Of a DNA stretch of 64,000 bases, positions 29,969 through 33,253 are shown one piece after another; position 1 is the stretch's first letter; each line of letters starts with the position of its first letter. Source of the DNA: Geminicoccus roseus DSM 18922. Its GTDB lineage: Bacteria; Pseudomonadota; Alphaproteobacteria; Geminicoccales; Geminicoccaceae. The notes under the pieces are model-generated. The model worked only from the letters and a program-made list of their open reading frames with translations, searched no databases and was not told where the DNA came from. A program made the translations under genes and the position numbers. Where the stretch lies: contig NZ_KE386572.1 of NCBI RefSeq assembly GCF_000427665.1, positions 4,588,373 to 4,652,372 of the forward strand. The letters are read 5' to 3'.

Positions 29969-30889
29969 GGGCCCTGTCAGCTCTTGAGCCAGTCGAGAGC
30001 TGCGGCGAGGCAGAGGACGCCCATGAAGGCGTGGGCGGTCTTCTCGTAGCGGGTGGCGATCGTCCGCCGCTCCTTGAGCCTGGCCCGCAAGCGCTCGACC
30101 CATCGGGAGCGCTGCTCTCGGTCAGTTGCGGTAGGTCCAGGAGGGGCAGGCCACCGGCGCCTCGTGCGGTTGGGCAGGGATACCGGTCGGCTGCCCCTCG
30201 GCGGTGTGCCGACCGGTGATCCTGGGGAGATCGGATCAGCCTTCTGCCGAAGGCTGATGGTTTCAAACGCGCCCGCGCAAGGCATGGCTGGCATAGCCGT
30301 GATCCGCCACTACCCGGCGTGGTACGCCCGGCAGACGTTCCAGCAGGCCGATGGCCTGAGGCGGTTCGCGGGCCTGTCCAGGTGCCAGGCTGAAGGCAAC
30401 AGCCCGGCCGGAACCGTCGGCGATCACGCAGGCCTTGGTGCCATGGCCGCCACGAGATCGGCCAGGAGCTTCACCCGCAGGGCGCCGGGTTCCGCCGCCC
30501 CTTTTCGAGCAGCACCGGCCGCTTGCCGGCGGGCCCGGATGTTGCTGCCGTCCAGAAAAGGCCATGCCCAGCTGCACGCCTAGCTCTCAGGGCCATTGCC
30601 AGAAGCCGCTCTCGCATGCCGGGCTTGCCCCAGCGCATGAAGGTCTGCGCCGCCATCCGCCATGATCCGCCAGCAGGCCGCAGGCTGCGCCACTTCGCGC
30701 CATGCTGGCAGCGCCAGATGATCGCCTGTGCGTCTCAGATCGTGATGCTGCGACCTGCGGTGCGGGCGGCAGGCCTCGATCAAGGGTGCCAGCATCGCCC
30801 ATCGCGGATCTGTCGGCACGCCCGCCATCCACCATCCCATCCGCCGCTCATGCCGCAGATGGGGGAAGTGATCAGGAGCTGACGGGCCC
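29969..30889 (-). mobile_element. IS5-family element, inactive
   Basis: A 921-bp element bounded by imperfect terminal inverted repeats: GGGCCCTGTCAGCTCTTGA at 29969-29987 and the inverse of GGGCCCGTCAGCTCCTGA at 30872-30889 (one base missing, one mismatch). Contents are a frameshifted transposase. No clear target duplication was seen. Confidence 0.8.
29977..30840 (-). pseudogene. IS5-family transposase, frameshifted
   Basis: Transposase-like text is spread over several minus-strand frames, in order: MGWWMAGVPTDPRWAMLAPL and EACRPHRRS (from ATG 30840), MAAQTFMRWGKPGMRERLLA (about 30656-30590), MQLGMAF... through HGTKACVIADGSGRAVAFSL and LPGVPRRVVADHGYASHAL (about 30577-30280), and finally the tail SRWVERLRARLKERRTIATR...KTAHAFMGVLCLAAALDWLKS ending at 29977. 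Order and content match an intact IS5-type DDE transposase, but at least three frameshifts break it. It could only be used if supplied in trans. Confidence 0.85.
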
Positions 30890-31016: not shown

Positions 31017-32082
31017 CTAGCTGTTCGGTCCCAGGGTGTAGTGGGTCGGATCTGCGGTAAATCTGGCCGGCTGTTCGGTCCAGGTCTTGCAGATGAACTC
31101 GTAGGGCGTGAGGCCGCGCAGGCTCTTCAGGCGCCTGGCGTGGTTGTAGGCGTCGAGGAAGAGCTGCAGGTGGTGCCGGAGCTCGTCGTGGCTGCCATAG
31201 TGGTAGCGTCGGACGGTGGCATCCTTCAGCGTCCGGTTCATCCGCTCCACCTGACCATTGGTCCATCGATGGCCAGCAGGCCATCGATCCGACTCCTGCA
31301 GGGACCGCAGGCAGGAGCCTGCGGAGGGGGTGTGCCGGCTTGGTGGTGCGGTGCTCGATGCCGTGCTGCTCGCAGGCATGGTCGAAGGCGTGGACCAACC
31401 AGACGCGCGGCTCGCCCTTGGCGGCCCAATAGGCTTCCGCAGCGGCCTCGGCCACCGTGTTGGTGGGCGTACGGTCGACGAACTGGGTGCCGTTATCGGT
31501 GAGCACCGTGTGGATCCGGTACGGCACCGCCGCGACCAGGGCGTGGAGGAAGTCGGCAGCGGCTCGGCGGGTCGCCCGCTCATGTAGCTGGGCGAAGGCG
31601 AACTTGGAGGTCCGGTCGACGGCGACGAACAGGTAGAGCCGGCCCTGCTCGGTATGCATCTCGGCGATATCCAGATGGAAGAAGCCGATTGGATAGGCCT
31701 TGAAGCGGGAGCGCTGGGGTCTGACGCCATCGACCTCCAGTAGCCGGGCGATGCCATGCCGCTGCAGGCAGCGGTGTAGTGATGATCGGGTCAGGTGCGG
31801 CAGGGTCGGCTGCAGGGCGTAGAGGCAGTCGTCGAGGGGTAGGAGCGTGTAGCGTCGGAAAGCGACGATGACCGCTTCGTCCTCGACACTCAGCACGGTG
31901 GACCGCGCTGTCTTCGGTCCCATCGGCGAGTCGGTGGTGCAGGTCCGCCTGCGCCACTTCTGCACGGTGGTCGGACTGATGCCGTAGCGCCTGGCCAGTG
32001 CTCCTACGCTCGCTTCACTAGCTTGGATCGCGCGACGCACTGCCTCTGTCGTCGTGGCGCGGCCGTGAAGAACCTGGCCCAT
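31017..32082 (-). pseudogene. IS481-family transposase, interrupted
   Basis: From ATG 32082 the frame reads MGQVLHGRATTTEAVRRAIQ (helix-turn-helix), then the DDE catalytic core FFHLDIAEMHTEQGRLYLFV, FAFAQLHERATRRAAADFL, HTVLTDNGTQF and GIEHRTTKPAHP. There it breaks. The expected continuation TNGQVERMNRTLKDATVRRY and LDAYNHARRLKSLRGLTPYE, ending THYTLGPNS at 31017, is in another frame. The break coincides with 61-62 extra bases at 31266-31327. Apart from that insertion the gene looks full length (about 335 codons), so inactivation seems recent. Confidence 0.88.
31266..31327. repeat. Double-hairpin insertion inside IS481 transposase
   Basis: Extra DNA of 61-62 bp between the codons for KPAHP and WTNGQ of the transposase. 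It contains two perfect hairpins: a 10-bp stem ATCGATGGCC/GGCCATCGAT (31265-31288, loop AGCA) and an 8-bp stem CCGCAGGC/GCCTGCGG (31305-31324, loop AGGA). It resembles a small palindromic mobile element (REP- or RUP-like). Origin unknown; the exact borders are ambiguous by one base. Confidence 0.7.
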
Positions 32083-32226
32083 AGCGCGTCCTTCCAGCAC
32101 GGCTGTTCAAGTGTAGATGCCGTAACGGGCCCACGCTGGCTCTGACTGGCGGGCCGGCTGTCCCTCAGAGTGATGGCGTGTGCGGGGTCCGCACGGGTCG
32201 GCCCCAGGCATCATCGAGGGACAGCC

Positions 32227-33253
32227 ATGGAGCATGATGCCGGGATCGACGTGTCGCTGGAACGGAGCAGCGTGTGCGTGGTCGACCGCAGCGGCCGGAT
32301 CATTCGCGAGGCCAAGGTAGCGAGCGAGCCGGAGGCGCTGGTCGGCTTCTTCGGCCAGCTCGGCCTGCCGCTGGTCCGGATCGGGCTGGAGGCGGGGCCG
32401 CTCTCGCAGTGGCTGCACGCCGGGCCGACGGCGGCCGGGTTCGAGGCGGTGCTGCTGGAGACCCGGCACGTGAAGGCGGCGCTTTCGGCCATGATCGTGA
32501 AGACCGATCGCAAGGACGCCCGCGGCATCGCCCAGCTCTTGCGCATGGGCTGGTTCAGGCCGGTGCACCGGAAGTCTCCCGATGCCCAGGAGGTCCGGGC
32601 GTTGCTGGTCGGCCGCAAGCTCCTGCAAGCCAAGCTGCGGCCTGCAAGCCAAGCTGCGGGATGTCGAGCTCAGCATCCGCGGCATCCTGCGCGGCTTCGG
32701 GCTCAAGGTGGGCGAGGTCAGCAAGGGCCGGTTCGCTGCCAAGATCAACGAGCTGGTCGCTGGCCACGAGATGCTGGAGACAGTTGCCGGCGCGATGCTG
32801 CAGGCGCGCGAAGGTTTGCAATCCGAGTTCATGCGCCTGCACCGGCGGATGCTGGCCATCGTACGTGGCGATGCGGTCTGCCGACGGCTGATGACGGCAC
32901 CCGGCGTGGGCGCCTTGGTGGCGGTCACGTTCAAGACCGCCGTCGATGATCCGGAACGGTTCCACACTGCCAAGGCGGTGGGGGCTCACTTCGGGCTCAC
33001 GCCGAAGCGGTACCTGTCGGGCGTGACCGATGTGAGCGGCGGGATCAGCAAGGTCGGGGACGCGATGGTGCGCACTGCCCTCTACGAGGCGGCCAACGCG
33101 ATGCTGACCCGGACTGTCCGCGTCTCAACCCTCAAGCGCTGGGCCCTTGAGGTTGCCAAGCGACGCGGCACGAAGCGGGCCAAGGTGGCCTTGGCCCGCA
33201 AGCTGGCCGGTGTTCTCCATCGCATGTGGGCGAACGGCACCGACTTCCGCTAG
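32227..33253 (+). pseudogene. IS110-family transposase, frameshifted
   Basis: From ATG 32227: MEHDAGIDVSLERSSVCVVD (first acidic residue of the DEDD site), GLEAGPLSQWL, KTDRKDARGIAQLLRMGWF. The frame is lost after RALLVGRKLLQAKLR at about 32640 and resumes one frame over with RDVELSIRGILRGFGLKVGE, MTAPGVGALVAVTF, HFGLTPKRYLSGVTDVSGGI and GDAMVRTALYEAANAML to the stop at 33253 (transposase_20 domain). The cause is an exact 19-bp tandem duplication; removing one copy would restore a single frame of about 335 codons. Confidence 0.92.
32622..32659 (+). repeat. 19-bp tandem duplication breaking IS110 transposase
   Basis: CCTGCAAGCCAAGCTGCGG occurs twice with no bases between (32622-32640 and 32641-32659). 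Nineteen is not a multiple of three, so the duplication shifts the transposase frame. Confidence 0.95.

Follow-up and report, generated by a model that had tools for sequence, protein, structure and literature searches.

The window, the whole stretch of 64,000 nucleotides from Geminicoccus roseus DSM 18922 to which plain coordinates refer below, belongs to a genome of 5.70 Mb in five contigs (G000) and carries on its minus strand an IS481-type transposase gene that is interrupted by 61 bp of extra DNA. The insert occupies 31267-31327, directly 3' of the tetranucleotide CCAT, and its limits are set by 102 copies and by unoccupied relatives. The 5' part of the host gene lies at 31328-32100 and its 3' part at 31017-31265, a Pfam rve match (3.1e-14) falls in 31333-31851, and the host frames on both sides are otherwise open. 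The features of the locus are the following.

31263-31266, plus strand: CCAT tetranucleotide, left flank directly 5' of the element, not duplicated; CCAT in 60 of 71 standard-length copies
31267-31327, plus strand: 61-bp three-hairpin element; covariance model 86.6 bits, length 61 in 71 of 102 copies, empty and filled sites
31265-31288, plus strand: hairpin 1, 10 bp, loop AGCA at 31275-31278; DNA fold and covariation
31294-31304, plus strand: hairpin 2, 3-nt loop; 3 bp in the DNA fold, 4 with a T-G pair in the model
31305-31324, plus strand: hairpin 3, 8 bp here (7 modelled), loop AGGA at 31313-31316; fold and covariation
31324-31327, plus strand: right-end tetranucleotide GAGG; GAGG in 45 of 71 copies, AAGG in 10, GCGG in 6
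31017-32100, minus strand: IS481-type transposase (rve core), the frameshifted host; open reading frames, Pfam rve, open frames on both sides
30196-30256, minus strand: second, more divergent copy; 39.9 bits, E 5.8e-9, CCAT at 30257-30260

The initial annotation of this DNA placed extra sequence between the codons for KPAHP and WTNGQ, and the open reading frames and flanking frames bear this out, the insertion point in the minus-strand gene lying after the former and before the latter. It also held that the insert alone explains the frameshift, which agrees with a length of 3n+1 and with the open flanks. Of the limits it gave (31265-31327) the end stands and the start moves, since 31265 is the A of CCAT and the element begins at 31267. 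Both hairpins that it described, of 10 bp with an AGCA loop and of 8 bp with an AGGA loop, are present; a third, small one lies between them, and the two outermost A-T pairs of hairpin 1 take in the AT of the flanking CCAT. Intact IS481 relatives carrying the insert in a continuous frame, which would have contradicted that annotation, were not seen in L105 and L115, two other IS481 copies occupied at the same site. An IS5-like transposase remnant, identified by eye among the open reading frames, has the second copy of the window at its end, and a split IS110-like transposase, likewise recognised by eye, adjoins the interrupted gene at 32226-33253 on the plus strand.

Copies and fold of the element

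The 61-bp insert is one copy of a repeat family that is non-autonomous, mobile, without coding capacity and found mainly in Geminicoccaceae. The first DNA search of the window genome returned two more copies (84 and 77% identity), both in frames read as other transposases, and the covariance model revealed 26 copies in this genome, 36 in that of a congener (G001), and 32 (G013), 12 (G025) and 6 in three genomes of another genus, with fewer elsewhere; among the 31 genomes of the order, 14 carry matches at E<=0.01 and 11 of these, referred to below as strong carriers, at E<=1e-5. The search of the genome and its relatives that had been proposed earlier thus finds a recurring structure, and the possibility raised there that no other copies exist does not hold. 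Across 385 genomes of the class, under strict filters that lose weak matches, only the window genome and one weak match of 34.2 bits were recovered, the latter (L141, G211:C1:4891959-4892037) possibly by chance.

An exact pattern of the left half matched 19 stretches in public genomes: 14 in Geminicoccaceae records, 2 in one Rhodospirillales MAG and 1 each in a MAG labelled Alphaproteobacteria, a MAG labelled Chloroflexia and a Halobacteriales record. For the Rhodospirillales, Alphaproteobacteria and Chloroflexia records the model confirms full copies at 83-90 bits, and the taxon labels of MAGs outside Geminicoccaceae may be wrong. The Halobacteriales match (L055, 36.6 bits), in which by eye most of the right half is missing, may be due to chance. 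Viral contigs gave no match to the one exact left-half pattern, and no description of the 61-bp family was found in the part of the literature that was searched. For comparison, 102 copies were collected with their surroundings at E<=1e-4, 27 from the window genome, 37 from G001, 32 from G013 and 6 from G011. Clusters within 350-520 bp occur in G001, with four copies at C1063:837-1358, four at C172:11933-12392 and three at C220:6758-7107, the copies of the first two clusters lying in both orientations.

The insert folds as DNA with an energy of -25.3 kcal/mol, against -15.8 (sd 2.5) in 200 shuffles, one of which was as good. The three helices fit 17 aligned copies from three genomes with 94.9% of cells paired; both sides have changed in 15 of 22 pairs of these copies, and the covariation score of 0.531 compares with 0.183 in shuffles (0 of 500 as good) and at most 0.124 in slid controls. 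All five modelled pairs of hairpin 2 show changes on both sides, the outermost modelled one being unpaired in 10 of the 17 copies, and owing to this covariation the small middle hairpin (31294-31304) is firm. A chance palindrome is ruled out by the further copies, the covariation and the shuffles.

Watson-Crick pairs fill 1328 of the 1491 cells in the 71 standard copies, the rest being 42 G-T, 35 A-C and 86 other combinations. In an RNA fold, G-U would be far better tolerated than A-C; since G-T and A-C mismatches are about equally rare, the fold of the element is probably one of DNA rather than RNA. The loops of hairpins 1, 2 and 3 mostly read AGNA, GNA and AGNA in these copies, that of hairpin 2 being GAA, GCA or GGA in 56 of 71, and GNA triloops are very stable in DNA. 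An RNA family was considered and rejected, no Rfam match having been found over any element in 6 loci (E<=5).

Removal of the insert from the RNA, or hopping of ribosomes over it, would leave the transposase functional, and mitochondrial bypassing elements and tiny introns are precedents for it. The presence of the element in genes and in conserved motifs, its maintained structure and a window host open on both sides would suit this account, which we nevertheless regard as very improbable: copies lie in both orientations to the host gene (27 antisense and 11 sense, n=38; p 0.07 when set against how often CCAT occurs on each strand), the covariation and mismatches are DNA-like, up to four copies cluster in ~520 bp, and several hosts contain stops. 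Translational bypass and splicing were both rejected on the orientations, the mismatches and the stops. The ratio pN/pS among the flanks of 14 pairs was 0.21-0.69, a range biased low by the choice of the lowest-ratio frame.

Ends, unoccupied sites and shorter relatives

The length after CCAT is exactly 61 nt in 71 of the 102 copies and runs from 44 to 78 in the rest. In 69 sites, left from 99 after removal of similar flanks, base preference ends sharply, on the left with CCAT and on the right with GAGG and one further G or C; no longer target motif, that is, no base preference beyond CCAT and GAGG plus one base, and no flank repeat of the kind left by target duplication appeared in these 69 sites.

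Unoccupied relatives also show insertion without target duplication. At an IS630 site the empty L090 has ATTGTCCAT/CACCACC (it reads AGATTGTCCATCACCACC) and L077 has the same sequence, its CCAT and CACCACC separated by 61 bp. The FLAI site of IS481 is empty in L090, with CTGGCAAT/CGACC, and filled in L105, with CTGGCAAT-61-CAACC, the longer reads being TTCCTGGCAATCGACCGC for L090 and CTGGCAAT-61-CAACCGC for L105. At an IS5 site the open relative L177 has an empty CCAT where L070, L103, L104, L106, L110 and L071 are filled, L104 and L106 with one base more after the element than the empty L177 predicts. A comparison with IS481 copies for target duplications had been suggested at the outset, and none were seen at the empty and filled sites.

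The tetranucleotide of the empty sites is CCAT at the IS630 DNL and IS5 sites, CAAT at the IS481 FLAI site, and CCAC, CCAG or CCAA at the TNGQ site, which is that of the window copy and where filled copies read CCAT. Of the four copies that fill the IS630 PDFN site, three have CCAT and one has CCGT, against CCGAT, longer by one base, in the empty ones; CCAT also stands there in L068, which comes from a different genome and has a different stem sequence. The mismatches at the TNGQ and PDFN sites suggest that the flanking tetranucleotide may in part be brought by the element, replacing similar sequence.

Further palindromic inserts, recognised by eye, follow a CCAT or CCGT in these IS481 genes as well: ~46 bp in L115 (about 805-870) and L146 and 45 bp, a multiple of three, in L102 (about 452-505). 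Their order of hairpin, GATCC linker, small hairpin and hairpin with an end in GG or AG is like that of the 61-bp element, and these inserts suggest a wider group with a short form. The L105 pseudogene contains two further hairpin-like inserts of ~29 and ~24 bp.

Host genes and recurrence at one base

A Pfam scan covered sixty flanking frames, which were picked by coding score and length, some loci contributing several. Transposase or IS-associated models matched 38 of them, five below the curated cut-off (L070:5333, L078, L112, L127 and L129), other families matched 3 and no family 19, which makes 38 of the 41 frames with any match. The three others were NADHdh, a CcmH TPR protein and DnaJ: the first lies beside L086, the second at a distance of 90 bp from L120 and the third 215 bp away from L134, copies that match the model at 24.4, 26.7 and 41.3 bits. 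At least eight host groups are represented (DDE_Tnp_1/DUF4096, rve/HTH_21, DDE_3, IS110, Mutator, IS66, DUF772 and IstB), with a weak IS1595 match as a ninth, the assignment of Pfam models to IS families being partly our assumption. A control of 20 random CCAT sites, one per 15-kb sample of the window genome's chromosome, gave 0 transposases, 17 other families and 3 frames without a match. Selection would remove insertions from needed genes, and the host bias alone is therefore no proof of targeting.

Furthermore, the same base is occupied in separate host lineages. The TNGQ site is filled in L087, L105 and L115, whose aligned elements are 85-90% identical, and empty in L102, L146 and L090; free gaps in the element alignment put an estimated floor of ~0.65 on the identity of unrelated sequence. 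In a tree of these six IS481 copies, made from alignments, each filled host groups with an empty one (supports 1.0, 0.95 and 0.99), host identities outside the inserts being 0.865 for L087-L102, 0.857 for L105-L090, 0.749 for L115-L146 and 0.593 for L087-L105. To explain this tree, one base must have gained the element three times or lost it precisely three times, or gene conversion must have acted between distant copies; gene conversion between host copies could spread the element to the same base. Elements with stems that differ by eye are found at two occupied sites, L068 at the IS630 PDFN site and L054 at the site of L079:2726. The full copies L054 (MAG labelled Chloroflexia) and L068 (MAG labelled Alphaproteobacteria) lie, by eye, in transposase-like frames.

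The kinship of copies bears on whether each site received one old insertion that was inherited with its host IS, the elements staying similar through structural constraint or gene conversion. Shared ancestry is clear in L076/L077, L070/L103 and L075/L080, L105 and L115 have two occupied sites in common, and two neighbouring flanks of L105 and L107 are very unequal in identity, a pattern expected after recombination. Such inheritance is unlikely as the general account given that, among the six IS481 copies compared, three filled ones each have an empty nearest relative and that the open IS5 relative is empty where six others are filled. Of 15 pairs whose site-alike, ungapped flanks are both below 0.70 identity, 10 have elements 0.82-0.95 identical and 5 elements 0.63-0.79 identical, against a mean of 0.66 over all pairs; these pairs are not independent, and ungapped flanks overstate host divergence where indels occur. 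Three pairs with L114:832 have flanks (0.81-0.87) more alike than their elements (0.70-0.73), again ungapped. Among pairs with both flanks below 0.42 identity no two copies are more than 93% identical; recent jumps are thus not seen, and the activity does not look fresh.

Placement in transposase genes could also be the work of a guided or homing system that in effect silences transposons. The transposase share of matched frames (38 of 41 against 0 of 20 at random sites) would fit it, as would insertion in the putative catalytic motifs WTNGQVER, RRWVVER, MDNL and NPIE, which we take to be catalytic, and arrival at the same base in separate lineages, also by elements with other stems (L068, L054). 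We consider such a system improbable, since the flanks hold no motif beyond CCAT, models of TnpB-type, reverse transcriptase and Y2 proteins find no match in G000, G001 and G013, and insertions elsewhere may simply have been lost by selection. It is doubtful, with a modest chance of holding, that the family represents an undescribed class, a site-directed, gene-less, homing-like hairpin element in conserved motifs of transposases of many IS families that acts as a genome-wide transposon brake.

Movement, candidate enzymes and known systems

The element is real, multi-copy and has been mobile in the past, and it is probably a single-strand hairpin element. That it is non-autonomous and moved as folded single-stranded DNA by a trans-acting enzyme is the reading we hold with somewhat better than even confidence. 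In this scheme the enzyme would recognise the element in its folded single-stranded form, cut it next to the CCAT that flanks it and behind its own terminal GAGG, and join it to a different CCAT, much as Y1 (HUH) transposases cut REP sequences and as IS200/IS605 ends are handled. In the window, an IS481 transposase is disabled by the insertion.

Y1 transposase genes are present in 6 of the 31 genomes, 4 of the 11 strong carriers (G000, G009, G019 and G025) and 2 of the 20 others (Fisher p 0.15), and none was found in the strong carriers G001 (100% complete, 36 copies), G013, G011, G021, G010, G015 and G020. The REP-associated transposase that the initial annotation proposed to look for therefore does not clearly track with the element. 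The Y1 gene of the window genome (L096, G000:C5:3244952-3245275) encodes a protein of 283 aa, presumably RAYT-like by its start; its 3.3-kb locus contains no copy of the element, and ten Y1 loci gave only one weak element match (15.6 bits, L097). Models of Y2, the TnpB-type zinc ribbon and reverse transcriptase found no match in G000, G001 and G013; G001 is in 1150 contigs and G013 is 86% complete, so that absence of the enzyme is not final. As candidates, Y1, Y2, TnpB and reverse transcriptase do not fit the carriers as a set.

An autonomous parent with separated ends was rejected as well: 56 of 58 left-half matches in five genomes lie within full copies, one, at G025:C248:2283, is a palindromic left half with no right half after it (a truncated copy, one of 57 palindromic matches), and one, at G000:C5:210722, is not palindromic and is a chance match. 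By replication strand, the window genome's own copies divide by eye into ~13 and 8 of 21, with the origin and terminus placed by skew and KOPS in 20 samples and with six of the 27 copies omitted (three on contig C1, two near the terminus, one weak match); the count is uninformative because the hosts move.

The surprising parts are the placement in transposase genes and the recurrence at one base. REP-type miniature hairpins lie mostly between genes and are linked to a Y1 transposase, whereas the present ones lie mostly in transposase genes, occupy the same base in separate lineages, and are found with four enzyme families unmatched in two of the three richest genomes. Naming the enzyme or host machinery would bear on the spread of transposase-less repeats such as the CGTC REPs, and if the placement is directed, it would be a way for a genome to disable insertion sequences that was not known before.

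The likeness to REP/RUP-type elements drawn in the initial annotation stands for a miniature, palindromic, multi-copy structure with precise insertion; membership of either group is not supported, the element departing from REP in tag, location and enzyme. An ordinary REP sequence moved by a RAYT is an unlikely identity, even with hairpins that have a fixed tetranucleotide beside the foot, multiple copies without target duplication, and one Y1 gene in the window genome, which we take to be RAYT-like, next to the Y1 counts of 4 of 11 and 2 of 20. The element bears no GTAG or CGTC tag (left CCAT in 60 of 71, right GAGG in 45 of 71 copies), has three hairpins in 61 bp and is not mainly extragenic, and no Y1 gene was found in G001, G013, G011 and G021 and no copy beside that of the window genome. 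REP/RAYT systems, as described in PMC3733652, share with the element short DNA hairpins in many copies with a tetranucleotide at the hairpin foot, some of them in genes. REPs are mostly intergenic, whereas the frames flanking the element are 38 of 60 transposase or IS-associated, 3 other and 19 without a match; the CCAT flank, the GAGG end and the lack of a linked RAYT at ten Y1 loci set it apart as well. The same paper lists CCTC as a variant of the CGTC tag and describes alphaproteobacterial CGTC REPs as lacking a dedicated transposase and carrying AT pairs at the foot of the stem as well as a CCA-like tail (PMC3733652). GAGG is CCTC in reverse complement, which makes a distant relation to the CGTC REPs possible; 364 kb of the window and chromosome samples contained 0 hairpins that combine a CGTC, TGTC or CCTC tag with AT at the foot of the stem.

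With the IS200/IS605 family, following the scheme set out in PMC6006769, the element shares its position mostly 3' of a fixed tetranucleotide, insertion without target duplication, hairpins close to both ends and a final tetranucleotide that is conserved. The insertion pattern holds at the DNL and FLAI sites, and at the TNGQ and PDFN sites if the tetranucleotide has changed or is borne by the element. Unlike IS200/IS605 elements, it has no autonomous partner among the sequences searched, Y1 is absent from 7 of the 11 strong carriers, and its hairpin starts inside the flanking tetranucleotide.

DDE-type MITEs are likewise short non-autonomous inserts; unlike them, the element shows no target duplication, and no terminal inverted repeat is apparent in the consensus ends, where CC and GG at the very ends could pair. 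RmInt1-like group II introns arrive repeatedly at one transposase-gene site as the element does, from which they differ by its 61 bp and by the lack of a reverse transcriptase match in the three richest genomes. Rickettsia palindromic elements are palindromic inserts inside alphaproteobacterial protein genes, and their insertion is in-frame, whereas the 61-bp element shifts the frame. Their hosts are varied genes (PMC3733652), and the matched hosts of the present element are mostly transposases.

Both the IS200/IS605 and the REP mechanism involve tetranucleotides at hairpin feet and single strands (PMC6006769). While shown to be a member of neither, the element is by analogy most like IS200/IS605 ends and REP sequences in its mechanism.
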